From assembly GCA_014237915.1 (NCBI GenBank), contig JABACC010000001.1:1-38368 (forward strand): a stretch of 38,368 nucleotides of DNA, read 5' to 3'. The stretch is from Candidatus Paceibacter sp. Lineage in GTDB: Bacteria; Patescibacteriota; Minisyncoccia; Phycocordibacterales; GCA-2747955. Every line of letters starts with the position of its first letter. Position 1 is the stretch's first letter. Position numbers and translations under genes: made by a program. Under the pieces are notes generated by a model, which was not told where the DNA came from, did not search any database, and saw only the letters and a program-made list of their open reading frames with translations. Positions 1,923-27,003 of this stretch are shown here, piece after piece.

Positions 1923-4232
1923 ATGTTTTTTATAAAAAATAAAAAAAATTTATTTTACTTTTTGTTCCTTTTTTTATTTATTTTTTCTGGCCTTGTTTTT
2001 TCTTTAACAGAAAAAGATTTTTTAAATATTAAAAATATAGGATTAAGATCTAACAAAAACGAAACATTAAAAGTTCGTAATCTAGATCATGAATCTGGCA
2101 GCCCAACTTATGAAATAATAAATCAATCAACAACTGACTATTTTATACCAACAAAAACTTCACCAGAGTGGGAGTCTTTTAAAACCTTTGCAGGTACAAG
2201 ATCAGATTTGAGCATTACTTTAGTAGTAGAGTCAGGTGAAGAAATATTTGATACTCCAGGAATTAACTACTTTGTGGTTCCAGAAGGGGTAAGCCAAGTT
2301 CATGCAGTTTGCGTTGGAGGAGGTGGAGGAGCTAACTCAAACGATGGAGGAGCTGGAGGAGCCTTAGCTTGGAGAAATAATATTCCCGTAACCTCAGGGA
2401 GCAGCTTAGAGGTAGTAGTTGGATCTGGAGGAGATGGTTCAATTAGGAGTTCCCAAGGGAATTATGGAATTGGTGGAAGTTTTAGTTCTTTTGAAGGTAT
2501 GATTGCGGGTGGAGGAGAAGGAGGACAGCCTGAAGGCGGAGGTATCGCAGCAAGTGGAGGAAATCCAAGTGGAAATTATGATGGTGGTGGAGCTGGAGGT
2601 GATGCAGACACTCATCACGGAACCAGTGATGCTGGAGGAGGAGGAGCAGGAGGATATAGTGGGGCTGGAGGAACAAGCGATGCAAACAATAATGGAGGAG
2701 CTGGTAATGGAGGAGCTGGTGGAGCTGGCGGAGGAACAACTACAACCGCAGGTGGTGGTGGTGGTGTAGGGCTTTTTGGAGAAGGTACTTCCGGAGCCGG
2801 AGGAACAAGTAGAAACGGAGGAAGCGGAGGATCAGGTGGTAGTAATGGAGTTGCAGGAAATAATTCAAATACAGGTGGAGCCGGAGGTAGTTATGGAGGA
2901 GGAGGAGGAGGATCATCCTCCTCATCAGGGAGAGGAGGTGATGGAGGTGATGGAGCTTGTAGAATTATTTGGGGCGATTATAGTTTTCCAGATAATGTAG
3001 ATTTATCTGTATCAGCTCCTTCCCCTTCATACTCAAGCTGTACCGGCCCTGACGGATCATCAATATCTCACTCATCTTCAAAAACATATTACCAAAGCTC
3101 ATCTGTAGCTTACGGCTCAAGCTGTACTTCAGAAAGTAGAACATGTAACGACGGATCACTTTCAGGATCTTACACTAACGCTTCTTGTTCTGTGGCTGCC
3201 GCTTCAAGCTGTAGCTTAGACGGAGTAACAATTTCTCACGGATCTTCAAGAACATTTTATATCACAACATCATCCTCGAGCTGTTCTTCATATGATCAAA
3301 GTAGAACATGTAATAACGGAACACTTTCAGGATCAAGCTCTTATAAATATAAATCTTGTTCAGCTCCTTCTCCTTCATACTCAAGCTGTACCGGCCCTGA
3401 CGGATCATCAATATCTCACTCATCTTCAAAAACATACTACCAAAGCTCATCTGTAGCTTACGGCTCAACCTGTACTTCACAAACAAGATCATGTAACAAC
3501 GGATCACTTTCAGGATCTTACACTAACGCTTCTTGTTCTGTGGCAGCAGCTTCAAGCTGTACCGGCCCTGACGGAACATCAATATCTCACTCATCTTCAA
3601 AAACATACTACCAAAGCTCATATGTAGCTTACGGCTCAACCTGTACTTCACAAGCAAGATCATGTAACGATGGATCACTTTCAGGATCTTACACCCATGC
3701 TTCTTGTGATGTGGAGGATCCTCCTTTAAATGGAACCTGCGGAGTAAGACATGGAGAAGATTTTTACGATAGCTTACCAGCTGGATCTAGATGTAACTCA
3801 GTTGCTGGAGGAGGATCTGGACAACCAGCTACTTCCCCTGTTACAACTTCAGGCGGATGGACTTGGAATTGCCCAGGCTCAGATGGAGGTTCAACTGCTT
3901 CTTGTTCAGCAAATTTAAAGGTTGATGGAGTTTGTGGATCATCAACTAATTCATGTTCTGCGGGAAGCTATTCATCAGCACCAACTGATAGCTCAACTCA
4001 ATATTTATGGACTTGTGGAGGAATAAATAATGGATCTTCTGCTTCTTGTTCGGCAAGTAAGCCAGTAGTTAATGGAGTTTGCGGAACAAACACTTATACC
4101 TGTAGTTCCGGAAGTTATTCTTGGGTTAGCTATCCAGCACAAAGCAACGGATACTATGCTAGTTGGAAATGTAAAGGCTCTGGTGGAGGCCCAACTGCTT
4201 CTTGTTCTAAATATGACCCAAGCCAAAGATAG
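1923..4232 (+). CDS. Exported Gly-rich / Cys-rich repeat surface protein (putative adhesin)
   Basis: 769 aa; hydrophobic N-terminal signal; Gly-rich domain (FVVPEGVSQVHAVCVGGGGGAN...) resembling phage-tail-type Gly-rich domains; four ~55-aa Cys repeats (SSCTGPDGSSISHSSSKTYYQ...RTCNDGSLSGSYTNASC); C-terminal 'WxCxGxxGGxxASCSA' repeats. Confidence 0.85.
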   Translation: MFFIKNKKNLFYFLFLFLFIFSGLVFSLTEKDFLNIKNIGLRSNKNETLKVRNLDHESGSPTYEIINQSTTDYFIPTKTSPEWESFKTFAGTRSDLSITLVVESGEEIFDTPGINYFVVPEGVSQVHAVCVGGGGGANSNDGGAGGALAWRNNIPVTSGSSLEVVVGSGGDGSIRSSQGNYGIGGSFSSFEGMIAGGGEGGQPEGGGIAASGGNPSGNYDGGGAGGDADTHHGTSDAGGGGAGGYSGAGGTSDANNNGGAGNGGAGGAGGGTTTTAGGGGGVGLFGEGTSGAGGTSRNGGSGGSGGSNGVAGNNSNTGGAGGSYGGGGGGSSSSSGRGGDGGDGACRIIWGDYSFPDNVDLSVSAPSPSYSSCTGPDGSSISHSSSKTYYQSSSVAYGSSCTSESRTCNDGSLSGSYTNASCSVAAASSCSLDGVTISHGSSRTFYITTSSSSCSSYDQSRTCNNGTLSGSSSYKYKSCSAPSPSYSSCTGPDGSSISHSSSKTYYQSSSVAYGSTCTSQTRSCNNGSLSGSYTNASCSVAAASSCTGPDGTSISHSSSKTYYQSSYVAYGSTCTSQARSCNDGSLSGSYTHASCDVEDPPLNGTCGVRHGEDFYDSLPAGSRCNSVAGGGSGQPATSPVTTSGGWTWNCPGSDGGSTASCSANLKVDGVCGSSTNSCSAGSYSSAPTDSSTQYLWTCGGINNGSSASCSASKPVVNGVCGTNTYTCSSGSYSWVSYPAQSNGYYASWKCKGSGGGPTASCSKYDPSQR
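3020..3715 (+). repeat. Tandem Cys-repeat modules, three copies nearly identical at DNA level
   Basis: 'tcaagctgtaccggccctgacgga..catcaatatctcactcatcttcaaaaacat..accaaagctcat' at ~3031, ~3380 and ~3552; one more diverged copy between them. Confidence 0.85.
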
Positions 4233-7044: not shown

Positions 7045-7144
7045 TCTAAAAAACTTAAAGTTTTCAAAACTTAAAAAATTAAATTTTAAAATTAAGTATT
7101 TTTAAAAATCGTTTAAAAACTATTTTTGTAAAAATTTGATTTGA

Positions 7145-7175
7145 GGGTGCGCAAAGCCTCCGGCTTTGCGCACCC
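7145..7175. repeat. GC-rich hairpin GGGTGCGCAAAGCC-TCC-GGCTTTGCGCACCC
   Basis: Perfect 14-bp stem, intergenic. Confidence 0.85.
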
Positions 7176-7223
7176 TTAAACCAAATTTTTTCCACAGCTT
7201 ACCAAAAAAAGTCAAAGTTTTTC

Positions 7224-7251
7224 TTGACTTTAACAAAAAAATTAATATAAT
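7224..7251 (+). promoter_or_regulatory. Sigma70-like promoter for the lipoprotein operon
   Basis: TTGACT - 16 nt - TATAAT. Confidence 0.75.
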
Positions 7252-7342
7252 TAATCTCAGAAAAAAAGTTCTTATAAAATAAAAAATAAAAAATTTCCAA
7301 AACAAAAACCAACCGCCACAGAAGTGGCAGAAAGGAATTAAA

Positions 7343-7630
7343 ATGATTAAAAAAATTTTAATTTTAGTTGCTTTGAGCTCACTGCTCGCAGCATGCGCCA
7401 ATGGAGGATCTGCCGCGGATCACCGCGACAAACTAGTTACTACCATAACAGCCGTAAATCTGATTATAACAACGGCAGAAACTAAAGCCGCTATTGAAGC
7501 TGGAAGAGAGTTGGGAGTTATAGACCTTAAGACTGTAAAAGAAATGAATAAAGTGCTTAGAAACGCAATAAGAGTTTCTGTAAACAGCTCAGACTGGGCT
7601 GCAGGCAAAAAAAAAGGAAATGAAAAATGA
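7343..7630 (+). CDS. Small putative lipoprotein
   Basis: Signal peptide with lipobox LLAAC; SD AGAAAGGA 6 nt upstream of ATG; TGA overlaps the next gene (ATGA). Confidence 0.8.
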   Translation: MIKKILILVALSSLLAACANGGSAADHRDKLVTTITAVNLIITTAETKAAIEAGRELGVIDLKTVKEMNKVLRNAIRVSVNSSDWAAGKKKGNEK

Positions 7631-8337
7631 GAAACTTTATTTTTCTTTCTATTTTCTTTTTTTCAGCTTGGACTCAACAAGCCCAAGCTGAAAATCCAAC
7701 GTTATCTCGGGAATTCATAACATATCATGGAGAAAATATACCGATATGTATTCCCGACACAAGCCACAAAGGGAAAGAAAAACTTCCCGCTAGGCTTGTT
7801 ACTGCCAAAGAAGCAGGAGTTGATGAGGATAGGTATTTAATTATCCGTAATCAATTTCCGGTGGCAGCGAGGAATACTCCCGTTTGCGCCGTTAAGGCAA
7901 GCGAGGTTATGTACCTCCAAAATGTTTCTGGAGAATATTATCCAGCTTATGTAGAAGCCTGTGATAATCTTATACTAGAGGCAGAGTGGGTAGTATCTGT
8001 TGCTCCACCCTCACCACAACCAGTAGTTTCAGAAGATAAGACACCAGATATTTCTAAGTATCAAAAATATCTAGAAATATCTGGAAAAATTAATAATAAA
8101 GACATTAATATACCAGATCTTTCCAGAAACAGAATCGCTGAAGCTATACTTGGTGGTCTGGCAACTGGAGTCGGATTTGGCGTTGGTGGTGGAATTGTGT
8201 GCGGAATTTTAGGTTGTGGTGGAAATACTACAATTGATAGTTCTGGAAGTAATATTCCTGTTCAAAATGCTGACCAGTCTCCTGTTCCGACAGGACCTGT
8301 GCAAATTTTTGGTAGGCCTCTAACTGGAGGGTCTTGA
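7627..8337 (+). CDS. Exported protein of unknown function with Gly-zipper segment
   Basis: Signal peptide (MRNFIFLSIFFFSAWTQQAQA), Cys residues, GGLATGVGFGVGGGIVCGILGCGG segment; 4-bp overlap with the preceding ORF. Confidence 0.75.
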   Translation: MRNFIFLSIFFFSAWTQQAQAENPTLSREFITYHGENIPICIPDTSHKGKEKLPARLVTAKEAGVDEDRYLIIRNQFPVAARNTPVCAVKASEVMYLQNVSGEYYPAYVEACDNLILEAEWVVSVAPPSPQPVVSEDKTPDISKYQKYLEISGKINNKDINIPDLSRNRIAEAILGGLATGVGFGVGGGIVCGILGCGGNTTIDSSGSNIPVQNADQSPVPTGPVQIFGRPLTGGS

Positions 8338-8350
8338 GTTTAGAATTTTT

Positions 8351-8403
8351 TCCGAAGCGCCTTGGCGCTTCGGATTTGCTGGCACGAAGTGCCGGTTTTT
8401 TTT
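8351..8403 (+). terminator. Tandem hairpins and U-tract ending the lipoprotein operon
   Basis: TCCGAAGCGCC-TT-GGCGCTTCGGA (8351-8374), then CTGGCAC-GAA-GTGCCGG (8379-8395) followed by eight T. Confidence 0.8.
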
Positions 8404-8467
8404 ATTTTAATTTTTTGGGGCAAAAATTGCGGAGCAATTTTTGACCCAAAAAATTAAAATAAAAAAA
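8396..8467. repeat. ~70-bp near-perfect palindrome between convergent genes
   Basis: Arms ttttttttattttaattttttgggGcaaaaattgc / gcaatttttgAcccaaaaaattaaaataaaaaaa around GGA; one mismatch in ~35 bp. Confidence 0.9.
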
Positions 8468-16785: not shown

Positions 16786-17127
16786 ATGACAACACAAGAA
16801 AAAAAAGCAAAAAATACAAGCGGAGAGAAAATGAGAATCAAAGTTTCAGCTTATGATACAAAGGTTTTAGACAATTCTGTTTCTGAAATAGTGGATAACG
16901 CTATTCGTTTTGAAGCTGCTATCAGGGGACCAGTTCCAATGCCAACAAAAGCTAAGAAATACACAGTTAACAGGGCAACTTTTGTGCACAAAGATTCTCG
17001 CGAACAATTTGAGATGAAAATCCACACTCGGGTTATTGATATTTTAAACCCAACATCTAAAATTGTTGAAGCGCTTTCAAACTTATCATTACCATCAGGG
17101 GTGAATGCAGATATAAAAATTATTTAA
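16786..17127 (+). CDS. rpsJ: 30S ribosomal protein S10
   Basis: MRIKVSAYDTKVLDNSVSEIV...GPVPMPTKAKKYTVNRATFVHKDSREQFEMKIHTRVIDI. Confidence 0.97.
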   Translation: MTTQEKKAKNTSGEKMRIKVSAYDTKVLDNSVSEIVDNAIRFEAAIRGPVPMPTKAKKYTVNRATFVHKDSREQFEMKIHTRVIDILNPTSKIVEALSNLSLPSGVNADIKII

Positions 17128-18075: not shown

Positions 18076-18546
18076 ATGCAAATAAATATAATAGAAAAGA
18101 AAAATATATTAATTTTTTCAAAAAACTTATATTTAAGATCTCTGGTCGCATTAATTTATAATTCAATAGGATCTTTATTTATAATATGTACCTTAGGTAT
18201 TTTCCCTCTTATGTTATTAATAATTGATATAAATAAAAAACAAAAAGAAAATTGGCTAACTTCTGACAGCTTTTGGAGAAGACTTTTTTCTTTTAATTTC
18301 CACTCGTTAATCGGGTACATCTTCACCAGTATTACATTCTTTATTTTCCCTTTAGTTTATTGGTTGCTCAACAGAGAAAAAGAATCAAAAAATGATTTAG
18401 AATATAATGATTGGCTTAAATCAGATAGTTTTTTAAAAAAATCCTTTGCCACATATTTTCATTCCATCCTCCTATTATTCATTATTGGTTTTATCGCAGT
18501 TATTACAGGTATCGTTGTTACTGCTCTAGATTTATCTTCTGTTTAA
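18076..18546 (+). CDS. Polytopic membrane protein with duplicated WLxSDSFxx(R/K) motif
   Basis: NWLTSDSFWRRLFSFNFHSL... and DWLKSDSFLKKSFATYFHSI... within one ORF; hydrophobic helices. Confidence 0.75.
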   Translation: MQINIIEKKNILIFSKNLYLRSLVALIYNSIGSLFIICTLGIFPLMLLIIDINKKQKENWLTSDSFWRRLFSFNFHSLIGYIFTSITFFIFPLVYWLLNREKESKNDLEYNDWLKSDSFLKKSFATYFHSILLLFIIGFIAVITGIVVTALDLSSV

Positions 18547-18559
18547 TTAATTTTTTAAA

Positions 18560-18597
18560 AAACAAAGCGGGCCTCCGAAGGAGGCCCGCTTTGTTTT
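18560..18597 (+). terminator. Hairpin, copy 2 (AAAAAACAAAGCGGGCCTCC-GAA-GGAGGCCCGCTTTGTTTTTT)
   Basis: 20-bp stem; same core as the hairpin at 17942. Confidence 0.88.
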
Positions 18598-18623
18598 TTG
18601 AAAAATTTTATTATAATTAAAGT

Positions 18624-18821
18624 ATGAAAAATTTATTTGGGTTAAACAATGAAGAAGATAATTATAAATACAAAGGTTGGCTAAATTCAGACTTTCTTTT
18701 AAAAAGAGTTTTAGCTTTTTTTGGATATTCTGTTTTATCCACCTTGCTTGTTTGGGTTGTTATTCTATTGTTTCTTATATTTTTAGCAGCACTAACTTTT
18801 TTAATTAATTTAGTTTTCTAA
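18624..18821 (+). CDS. Small membrane protein paralogous to 18076..18546
   Basis: YKGWLNSDFLLKRVLAFFGYSVLSTLLVWVV shares the W-L-x-S-D-x-x-x-(K/R) motif; TATAAT-taaagt-ATG upstream. Confidence 0.7.
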   Translation: MKNLFGLNNEEDNYKYKGWLNSDFLLKRVLAFFGYSVLSTLLVWVVILLFLIFLAALTFLINLVF

Positions 18822-22632: not shown

Positions 22633-23451
22633 ATGTTTATTTTAAAAAGATTAAAAATGTGGATTTTGTCGGGAGCTATACTTTTTTTTCTTTCGGTTTA
22701 TTATCCGCCACAAAGCGACAAACTTTGGGCAGAAGACCACGAAACTTTAGCAGAGATAGAAATTAATGGAGATGAAATTTATATAGAAAACGTAAGAGAT
22801 TTTTCTTATATTCTAAAAATGAAAGAAGATTATTATAACGAAAGTTACAATTTAAATTCTTTGGAAGAAGTAAATTATATTTTAACTCATTTTAAAAATC
22901 CTGCATTTGCACACGCATTTTTATCTTTTAATTTTGGAAATAAAAAATTAATTATCTCGGTGGAGGCCAGAAGAGAAGAAAACGAAGAATTTTCAATTTT
23001 AAAAGGTGCGTTTAGAGGGTATGAGCTAATATTTGTGTTGTCTTCAGAAGAAGACAGTCTTGGAAGAAGAATTTTTACAGACAAAGACGAAACTTATTTC
23101 TATACTTTAGATTTAACAGAAAAAGAGAAAAAAGATTTATTTTTAGGCTTTATGGAATTTGGAAAAGATCTTGAAAAAAATCCTCAATGGTATAACACTC
23201 TAACTTCGTCTTCCACTATTTTATTTTTTGATATTTTAAACAAAAACAGAGAAAGAGATGAAAAAATTTTTAAAGGTTTTGAGGTTTTTCTTCCAGCCTA
23301 TTCTGCAAAATATTTTTATGAAAATGAAATTTTAAAAGAAAACCCAAAAAATATAAATTCTTTAAATAAATGTTTAAACGATGTTTATGAAAATTCGGAA
23401 AACTTAAATAATTTTTCAAATAATTTAAGAGTTTGCGCTTCTAAATCTTAA
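22633..23451 (+). CDS. Exported DUF4105/Lnb-N-like protein
   Basis: N-terminal signal; HAFLSFNFGNKKLIISVEARREENEEFSILKGAFRGYELIFVLSSEEDSLGRRI. Confidence 0.7.
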   Translation: MFILKRLKMWILSGAILFFLSVYYPPQSDKLWAEDHETLAEIEINGDEIYIENVRDFSYILKMKEDYYNESYNLNSLEEVNYILTHFKNPAFAHAFLSFNFGNKKLIISVEARREENEEFSILKGAFRGYELIFVLSSEEDSLGRRIFTDKDETYFYTLDLTEKEKKDLFLGFMEFGKDLEKNPQWYNTLTSSSTILFFDILNKNRERDEKIFKGFEVFLPAYSAKYFYENEILKENPKNINSLNKCLNDVYENSENLNNFSNNLRVCASKS

Positions 23452-24912: not shown

Positions 24913-24927
24913 TATAATTTAAAAATG
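24913..24927 (+). promoter_or_regulatory. -10 element TATAAT 6 nt upstream of the argS ATG (predicted leaderless)
   Basis: TATAAT-ttaaaa-ATG. Confidence 0.6.
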
Positions 24928-26598
24928 AAAAAAATAGAAAATATAATTTTAGACTTACTTAAAAATTCTTTAAAGGAAAATAATTTTCAGATAGAAATAG
25001 ATTTAGAAAATTTGGAACATCCAAAAAATTTAGAAATGGGAGATTTTTCTTCAAATATTGCAATGGTTTTAGCTAAAGAAAGTGGAAAAAATCTGCGTGA
25101 ATTTGCGGAGCAAATTCACGCTAAAATAAAACCTCACATATATATAAAAAAAATAGAAACAGCAGGAGCAGGATTTTTAAACTTTTTTCTTTCTAATAAA
25201 TTTTTTTCTGATTTTTTAAAAAATGAAAAAAATTTAAAAATACAAAAAAAACTTTCAGGAGAAAAAATACTTTTAGAGCATTCCAGCCCAAATCTTTTCA
25301 AACCTCTTCATGTGGGGCATTTGGTCAATAATTCCATCGGAGAGTCGCTAGGAAGAGTTTTTTCTTATTCTGGGGCAGATTTAACACAAGTTTCCTTTCC
25401 ATCAGATGTTTCTCCAGGAATTGCTAAAACAGTTTGGGCTTTAAAAAAAGAAGGAAAAAATAAAAATTTCTCCCTCTCGGATATAGCAGAAGCTTATGTC
25501 TATGGAACAAAAAAATATCAAGAAGATGAAAATATAAAAAAAGAAGTAAGACAAATAAATAAAGAAATTTATGAAAAAACAGAAGGGGAAAATTTAAAAA
25601 TTTACGAATATGGGAAAAATCTTTCTTTAGAGCATTTTAAAGAAATAACTTCAAAATTAGGATCTTCCTTTGATGGTTTTATTTTTGAATCAGAGTCGGA
25701 GGAGCTTGGAAAAAAATTAGTAAAAGAAAATATTGGAAAAATTTTTAAAGGCTCAGATGGAGCAATAATTTTTGAAGGTTCAAAATTTGGTCTTTTTGAT
25801 AATGTTTTTATAAACTCTGATGATTTTGGAACATATTTAGCTAAAGATTTTGGATTAATTAATATAAAAAATGAAAAATATAATTTTGATAAATCTTTTA
25901 CAATTGCTGATGTGGAGCAAAAAGATCATTTTAAATTGGTAAAAAAATCTTATGAAATTTTTGATAAAAAAGTTTCAGATAAATTTATTTTTCTTTCTCA
26001 TGGAAGAATGAGTTTTTCAGGGCAAGAAAAAATTTCTTCAAGATATGGAAATGTTCCGTTGGTTTTTGATCTTTTAGAAAAATCTTCCGAAAAAGTGAAA
26101 GAAAAAAATCCTGAACTTTCAGATGAGGAAGTAGAAAAAATTTCTATAGCGTGTTTGAAATATGCAATTTTGAAAGTTTCATCTGGAAAAAATATTGTTT
26201 TTGATTTTGAAAAAGCTTTAGATTTTTCTGGAGACTCTGGCGCTTACCTTTTATATTCACTTGTTAGAGCAAAATCTATTTTAAAAAAAGCTGGTGATTT
26301 TGAAAAAAATTCTCAAGTTTCAGATTTTGAAAAAAATTCTCAAGTTTCAGATTTTGAAAAAATTTTATACAGGTTTGAAGAACAAGTGGAAAAATCCCTG
26401 CGGGATTTTTCCCCCCACCACATAGCAAATTATTTATACGATTTAGCTCAAGAATTTTCTTCTTTTTATGAAAAAACAAAAATTTTGGATTCAGAAAATT
26501 CAGATTATTTGTATAATTTAAAACTTGTAGAAAAATTTTCAAAAACTTTAGAAAAAGGTTTGGAACTTTTAGCTATAGAAAAAGTTGAAAAAATGTAA
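24925..26598 (+). CDS. argS: Arginyl-tRNA synthetase
   Basis: EHSSPNLFKPLHVGHLVNNSIGESLGRV (HVGH), ...FLSHGRMSFSGQEKISSRYGNVP; C-terminal DALR region. Confidence 0.95.
   Translation: MKKIENIILDLLKNSLKENNFQIEIDLENLEHPKNLEMGDFSSNIAMVLAKESGKNLREFAEQIHAKIKPHIYIKKIETAGAGFLNFFLSNKFFSDFLKNEKNLKIQKKLSGEKILLEHSSPNLFKPLHVGHLVNNSIGESLGRVFSYSGADLTQVSFPSDVSPGIAKTVWALKKEGKNKNFSLSDIAEAYVYGTKKYQEDENIKKEVRQINKEIYEKTEGENLKIYEYGKNLSLEHFKEITSKLGSSFDGFIFESESEELGKKLVKENIGKIFKGSDGAIIFEGSKFGLFDNVFINSDDFGTYLAKDFGLINIKNEKYNFDKSFTIADVEQKDHFKLVKKSYEIFDKKVSDKFIFLSHGRMSFSGQEKISSRYGNVPLVFDLLEKSSEKVKEKNPELSDEEVEKISIACLKYAILKVSSGKNIVFDFEKALDFSGDSGAYLLYSLVRAKSILKKAGDFEKNSQVSDFEKNSQVSDFEKILYRFEEQVEKSLRDFSPHHIANYLYDLAQEFSSFYEKTKILDSENSDYLYNLKLVEKFSKTLEKGLELLAIEKVEKM
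26296..26361 (+). repeat. 27-bp tandem repeat (DFEKNSQVS, 2.4 copies) inside argS
   Basis: gattttgaaaaaaattctcaagtttca x2 then gattttgaaaaa. Confidence 0.9.
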
Positions 26599-27003
26599 GA
26601 AAAATAAATTTAAGTAAAAAACCTCCTCTTTTTTTGGCCAGCCTGCATCAAATCCTGCTGTGCAGGAATGAGGAATTTTAGTAGGAATACCCCCGCCCAT
26701 TTTGGTAATTGCCGCTTCGCTTACTATTTCGACGCAGGTTTTGCGCGTCTCACTTTTAAGCAAGGCCGCTACCAAATGGCAGGGTTTCGGCAGGCTTGGG
26801 AATGATCGCTCCTCATCAATGATAAGGCTTTTGCAAACCACCATGGTTGCATGGTTTGCTGCATGATTTTTAGAATCCTCCACAGCCAGAGGCCCATAAT
26901 AAACATATTTCATTGTGAGAGAAAGAGATATTATTCCAATTGTCATAAAAAAACAAACAAAGAACAAAACGAAACACAGTTCGTCTGAGTCTTCTTTTTT
27001 CAT
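26569..27003 (-). CDS. Membrane-anchored Cys-containing protein of unknown function; compositional outlier
   Basis: N-terminal TM (LCFVLFFVCFFMTIGIISLSL), SD AGAAAGGA upstream, TTGACT promoter; clearly more GC-rich than flanks. Confidence 0.65.
   Translation of the reverse strand: MKKEDSDELCFVLFFVCFFMTIGIISLSLTMKYVYYGPLAVEDSKNHAANHATMVVCKSLIIDEERSFPSLPKPCHLVAALLKSETRKTCVEIVSEAAITKMGGGIPTKIPHSCTAGFDAGWPKKEEVFYLNLFFLHFFNFFYS

Follow-up and report, generated by a model that had tools for sequence, protein, structure and literature searches.

How does an operon whose signals are written for a Shine-Dalgarno (SD) reading ribosome and a lipoprotein pathway come to lie in a bacterium with neither an anti-SD sequence nor lipoprotein enzymes, and can such an operon be put to use there? 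The question is raised by a two-gene operon in the window, that is, the whole stretch of 38,368 nucleotides analysed, which is contig C12 of a metagenome-type draft genome (G000; 567 kb, 15 contigs, 96% complete, 28% GC) consistent with the Candidate Phyla Radiation (CPR). Our best reading is that the operon is one of many imported cassettes, and that the class of genes which it exposes is the more interesting part.

The operon, its control signals and its products

The initial annotation had described a TTGACT-N16-TATAAT promoter, a leader of about 85 nt with a hairpin touching the SD, two ORFs coupled through ATGA that encode a lipobox protein and a secreted Gly-zipper protein with several Cys, and terminators downstream of the second ORF; all of these elements were found in the sequence (Table 1). 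The ATG of ORF1 lies 91 nt after the leadered promoter, and promoter matches of this quality occur by chance in the genome at about 0.003 per 100 nt. Compared with shuffled versions of itself, the leader has the more stable fold (z = -2.8; 2 of 200 shuffles equally good), helped by the GCCAC-AGAA-GTGGC stem, and an Rfam search with the leader and the terminators returned 77 sub-threshold matches, chiefly AT-rich hairpins, which were disregarded. Beyond the operon terminators lies a 34-bp inverted repeat (8397-8467).

Table 1. Features of the operon and its upstream border, in window positions.
Feature	Position	Strand	Basis or remark
Stem-loop with a 19-bp stem, between the operon and the upstream neighbour gene	7140-7180	+	sequence
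Sigma70-type promoter, TTGACT-N16-TATAAT	7224-7251	+	11/12 match; TTGACT 7224-7229, 16-nt spacer, TATAAT 7246-7251, read directly in the sequence
A-rich 5' leader, about 85 nt	7258-7342	+	start point inferred from the -10 box
Hairpin GCCAC (7315-7319)-AGAA-GTGGC (7324-7328), abutting the SD	7315-7328	+	sequence, fold
SD of ORF1, AGAAAGGA	7329-7336	+	sequence; own 16S rRNA without anti-SD
ORF1, 95-aa lipobox protein	7343-7630	+	sequence, translation; ATG at 7343
SD of ORF2, AAGGA, within ORF1	7614-7618	+	sequence
ORF2, 236-aa exported protein	7627-8337	+	sequence, translation
Gly-zipper segment of ORF2, GGLATGVGFGVGGGIVCGILGCGG	8152-8223	+	translation
First hairpin 3' of ORF2, CCGAAGCGCC-TTGG-CGCTTCGG region	8352-8373	+	sequence
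Intrinsic terminator, stem and T-run	8378-8404	+	sequence

ORF1 is a helical orphan protein whose signal sequence ends in SSLLAAC, with a lipobox (LAAC) that matches a PROSITE-like lipoprotein pattern, and ORF2 carries a signal peptide ending in QAQA/E, five Cys and the Gly-zipper segment. That no family could be recognised was borne out by Pfam, PHROGs, NCBIfam and PDB searches with both proteins, which gave only chance-level matches; the PDB match of ORF2, a designed Gly-rich propeller, is not meaningful. Neither protein was found among the phages, plasmids, viral contigs or genome contigs searched, and the AlphaFold single-sequence models (pLDDT 58 for ORF1 and 36 for ORF2) were too poor for a fold search. 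A two-component spanin pair (Rz/Rz1) was considered and rejected. The operon resembles such a pair in placing a short lipoprotein next to an exported partner and, weakly, in a match of ORF1 to phrog_1275 (E 0.007), but this match spans residues 1-47, mainly the signal peptide, and no lysis genes adjoin the operon. An i-spanin has an N-terminal anchor and a coiled coil; for ORF2, whose model is too poor to be used, the sequence points instead to a cleavable signal and a C-terminally placed Gly-zipper.

The codon composition had been called less A/T-biased than that of the flanks, and the two ORFs indeed depart from the genome average, with a GC of 0.396 and 0.401 (98th percentile) where the ORFs of the genome average 0.285 (sd 0.044), although their GC3 is less extreme (0.30 and 0.23, 95th and 89th percentile of genome ORFs) and high GC is not confined to the operon, a Gly-rich ORF at 1923-4232 of the window having a GC of 0.43. 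The flanking genes, which encode a penicillin-binding protein and an M23/LysM peptidase, are taken as native, and the same contig carries ribosomal-protein genes. These flanking genes are non-adjacent in two relatives (G003 and G011), so no empty insertion site could be demonstrated by synteny, and the direct repeats at the operon boundaries were AT-rich chance repeats only. Elsewhere in the window, two small orphan membrane-type ORFs (18076-18821, +) lie between the L3 and L4 ribosomal-protein genes, which are adjacent in G011; a protein with an Lnb N-terminal periplasmic domain (PF13387, E 8e-28), possibly exported, is encoded at 22633-23451 (+); and the sequence at about 100-480 resembles the start of contig C11 of the same genome (about 400-1020), being probably a repeat at which the assembly broke.

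Missing anti-SD sequence and lipoprotein enzymes

The 16S rRNA of the organism is full length (RF00177 match; contig C4, about position 16989, minus strand). Its 3' end reads GTGGATTATTTC, devoid of CCTCC, where other bacteria have GGATCACCTCCTT. CCTCC was likewise found at the 16S 3' end of none of 30 relatives, nor at that of G003 or G011. Of 145 genomes sampled from the phylum, 65 carry GGATCACCTCC; these include one of six taken from elsewhere in the class and none of the three from the order, so that the loss of the anti-SD falls within this part of the class. Loss of CCUCC has already been published for some CPR bacteria, among them Ca. Campbellbacteria and Ca. Wolfebacteria (PMC10783764, category iv), and the present organism resembles those described as devoid of a CCUCC anti-SD (PMC10783764; PMC6107228) both in its 16S tail and in that most of its genes have no SD; the passages on these organisms describe no SD-bearing orphan minority as imports. 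The neighbours of the operon had been regarded as leaderless, and in fact 64% of conserved genes resemble leaderless genes in having a TATAAT-like box 9-18 nt upstream of their start codon, which accords with the missing anti-SD.

Lipoprotein processing is affected in a similar manner. Searches for Lgt (PF01790) and LspA (PF01252, Peptidase_A8) found neither in the organism's own genome, in G003 or in G011, and the positive controls worked; ORF1 possesses the lipobox of a lipoprotein in a genome where the enzymes that process it are absent. With no anti-SD in the 16S rRNA the SD sites of the operon have no pairing partner, and with no Lgt or LspA its lipobox has no processing enzymes. The signals of the operon mismatch the machinery of the organism, whose ribosome and lipoprotein apparatus appear unable to use them.

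SD-bearing orphan genes and the genetic code of a relative

The operon is not alone in this respect. ORFs were called mechanically in three genomes, namely its own, that of G003, which belongs to the same family, and that of G011, a complete single contig from the same order, and were classed as conserved or orphan according to whether a homolog is encoded in other genomes, a strong SD being scored when located 4-12 nt before the start codon. A strong SD precedes none of 357 conserved ORFs vs 22 of 194 orphans in the organism's own genome (p 5e-11), 0/327 vs 40/223 in G003 (p 2e-17) and 5/378 vs 48/661 in G011 (p 7e-6), and in the analysed part of the genome of G005, of the same family and labelled as the same genus as G003, 1/180 vs 19/113 (p 7e-8). 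When any early start codon was allowed, 10 conserved genes with an SD were counted vs 33 expected from internal codons, and therefore the split is not due to wrong start calls. Other attributes follow the SD. Leadered promoters matching at least 10 of 12 positions precede 50% of SD genes vs 5% of conserved genes in the organism's own genome and 57% vs 9% in G003, with a weak excess in G011. Lipoboxes occur in one of 22 SD orphans vs none of 529 other genes in G000 and in five of 40 vs none of 510 in G003, a split that was not seen in G011. The GC3 of SD orphans exceeds that of conserved genes in all three genomes (0.295 vs 0.170 in G000, 0.257 vs 0.208 in G003 and 0.543 vs 0.279 in G011).

The operon belongs to this class, since both of its ORFs have strong SDs (AGAAAGGA and AAGGA), a search of 97 further genomes from its family and order found no homolog of either, and it shows the leadered promoter and the offset in GC and GC3. 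It contributes two of the 22 SD genes of its genome and the single lipobox protein among them; another of the 22, at C4:5919, is doubtful, its "SD" being the 3' end of a tRNA gene. SD genes are spread over eight of the 15 contigs. Within one genome, SD genes that are paralogs at 33-56% protein identity have retained their SDs, which is as compatible with several imports, or with selection acting on the SD, as with a single recent import. The hairpin at the ribosome-binding site was also considered as a class-wide regulatory element and set aside, the enrichment of stems abutting the SD being mild at most: four vs 1.1 expected in G000, one of the four being a tRNA arm, four vs 0.9 in G003 and six vs 6.6 in G011.

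Several further members of the class may be mentioned. A third SD orphan in the window (26569-27003, -) has the SD AGAAAGGA, a TTGACT promoter and a GC3 of 0.39, encodes a Cys-rich protein of 144 aa and overlaps the end of the gene at 24925-26598. In the same genome, the SD orphan C10:21039-21665 has a signal peptide and no family match in Pfam; read by eye, it looks like an outer-membrane beta-barrel ending in Phe, which would be unexpected in a CPR cell, where an outer membrane is lacking. Related promoter or leader sequences occur in two pairs of SD orphans (C2:62906-63214 and 63350-63829; C2:58086 and 65249; all on the minus strand), and the products of the first pair we take, by eye, to resemble PQ-loop membrane proteins.

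A further label is provided by the genetic code of G005. Of its 532 in-frame TGA codons, 304 are aligned with a Trp of its relatives, vs two stops in 241 control alignments, and reading through TGA lifts the coding fraction from 0.73 to 0.88. Judged from these alignments, UGA appears to be reassigned to Trp in G005, while G003 uses the standard code; the recoding familiar from CPR bacteria is UGA to Gly, and no tRNA-Trp(UCA) was seen in the analysed part of G005. In its conserved genes Trp is written TGA:TGG at 456:127, vs 2:48 in its SD orphans, where the two TGA sit at 0.86 and 0.98 of the frame and may be the original stops. Two contigs of G005 that may be co-binned foreign DNA, C9 and C12, were then set aside. 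C12 (17412 bp) holds four SD genes and none that is conserved, and writes nearly all Trp as TGG; it is probably a phage, a plasmid or another foreign contig that was co-binned. Without them the counts are 453:127 in conserved genes vs 1:22 in SD orphans (p 2e-13), and the orphans without an SD are native-like (133:43). Several SD genes of G005 sit between core genes, in one case genes which, from their sequences, we take to be rplU and rpoB. The Trp usage of these SD genes, close to TGG only, implies that they were written for the code of another cell.

Origin of the operon

The operon had been proposed to be either horizontally acquired or lineage-specific. Of these, horizontal acquisition is strongly supported, since the SDs and the lipobox fit a cell with an anti-SD, Lgt and LspA and the lineage has none of these, while a native innovation is disfavoured; this mismatch is a stronger ground for acquisition than composition. 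The further proposal of an envelope or host-interaction module is a conjecture drawn from the signal peptides. We consider it likely that the operon was imported as a self-contained expression cassette from an SD-using, lipoprotein-making bacterium of standard code, or from its phage. Against import it can be said that neither protein has a donor homolog in the collections searched, that the standard-code test concerns G005 and not the organism's own genome, and that the GC3 of ORF2 reaches the 89th percentile only.

The donor, the time of import and the function of the operon are matters on which we infer rather than observe. The signals of the operon would most likely place the donor among Gram-negative bacteria or their phages. 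Phages of Gram-negative bacteria are also indicated by several SD genes in relatives, which match phage families (phrog_200 lipoprotein, phrog_938 endolysin, phrog_94 head protease and phrog_9500 CsrA); the band-7 lipoprotein of phrog_200 is found in 126 phage records, mostly gammaproteobacterial (Vibrio, Pseudomonas, Aeromonas). The operon itself is similar to phage morons, or lysogenic-conversion genes, in having an independent promoter and terminator as well as a distinct composition and small envelope or lipoprotein products. It differs from them in that it lies outside a prophage, inserted singly between chromosomal genes, in that the recipient ribosome has no anti-SD, and in that phage searches found no homolog of ORF1 or ORF2.

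We hypothesize that promoter, leader, SD, the two coupled genes and terminator were brought in as one unit and inserted between the penicillin-binding protein and M23/LysM peptidase genes of the ultrasmall CPR-like bacterium. In the donor, the pair would have formed an envelope lipoprotein and an exported, membrane-inserting Gly-zipper partner, and our best guess at its original function, held with considerable doubt, is a role of moron type, for example in excluding phages or modifying the envelope. In its current setting the promoter is probably readable by the native RNA polymerase, and translation may bypass the SD through weak initiation at an AUG that is accessible within the A-rich leader. 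Should ORF1 be made, it would stay unlipidated, either tethered by its uncleaved signal or released, and ORF2 would be exported.

That both ORFs have intact frames and signal peptides would be compatible with a use by the present cell as well. Accordingly, a native, lineage-specific envelope module, in which a strong promoter, SD and RBS hairpin serve high or regulated expression, could account for these frames and signal peptides, the promoter, the terminators and the neat hairpin at the SD. Nevertheless, such a module would rely on an SD without an anti-SD partner and on a lipobox without Lgt or LspA, in a genome where no conserved gene uses an SD and with a relative that reads UGA as Trp and yet holds SD genes in the standard code, and we regard it as unlikely. 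Another explanation is that the cassettes are kept with the promoter, SD, lipobox and code of a host bacterium, their products being made or acting in that host once DNA or RNA has been transferred, in which case the operon (7224-8404) would be an envelope gene pair meant for the host. The class recurs in four genomes as intact units, its SD, lipobox and code all fit a foreign translation system, its GC3 differs per lineage as if matched to different partners, and the retention of SDs by paralogs leaves room for selection on the SD. Recent import, however, needs fewer assumptions to account for these data, the majority of the products are without recognisable function and we know of no delivery mechanism for such cassettes in CPR bacteria, which makes this explanation very unlikely. 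Finally, an artefact of assembly or binning that joined foreign sequence to a CPR contig, suggested by the draft state of the genome in 15 contigs and by the possibly co-binned 17-kb contig of G005, is extremely improbable for an operon flanked by native genes on a contig of 38 kb that also carries ribosomal-protein genes, and for SD genes spread over eight of 15 contigs here and found in the complete one-contig G011.

Taken as an imported cassette, the operon indicates that where the anti-SD is lost an intact SD labels imported genes, and this label agrees with independent ones, namely orphan status, promoter type, lipoboxes in the absence of Lgt and LspA, and the standard code in a relative with UGA as Trp. 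The SD would thus offer a simple route to listing the foreign genes in ultrasmall bacteria that live as parasites or symbionts, whether these genes are recent arrivals or are retained in the language of a host becomes testable, and their composition and homologs may perhaps reveal the partners of these bacteria.
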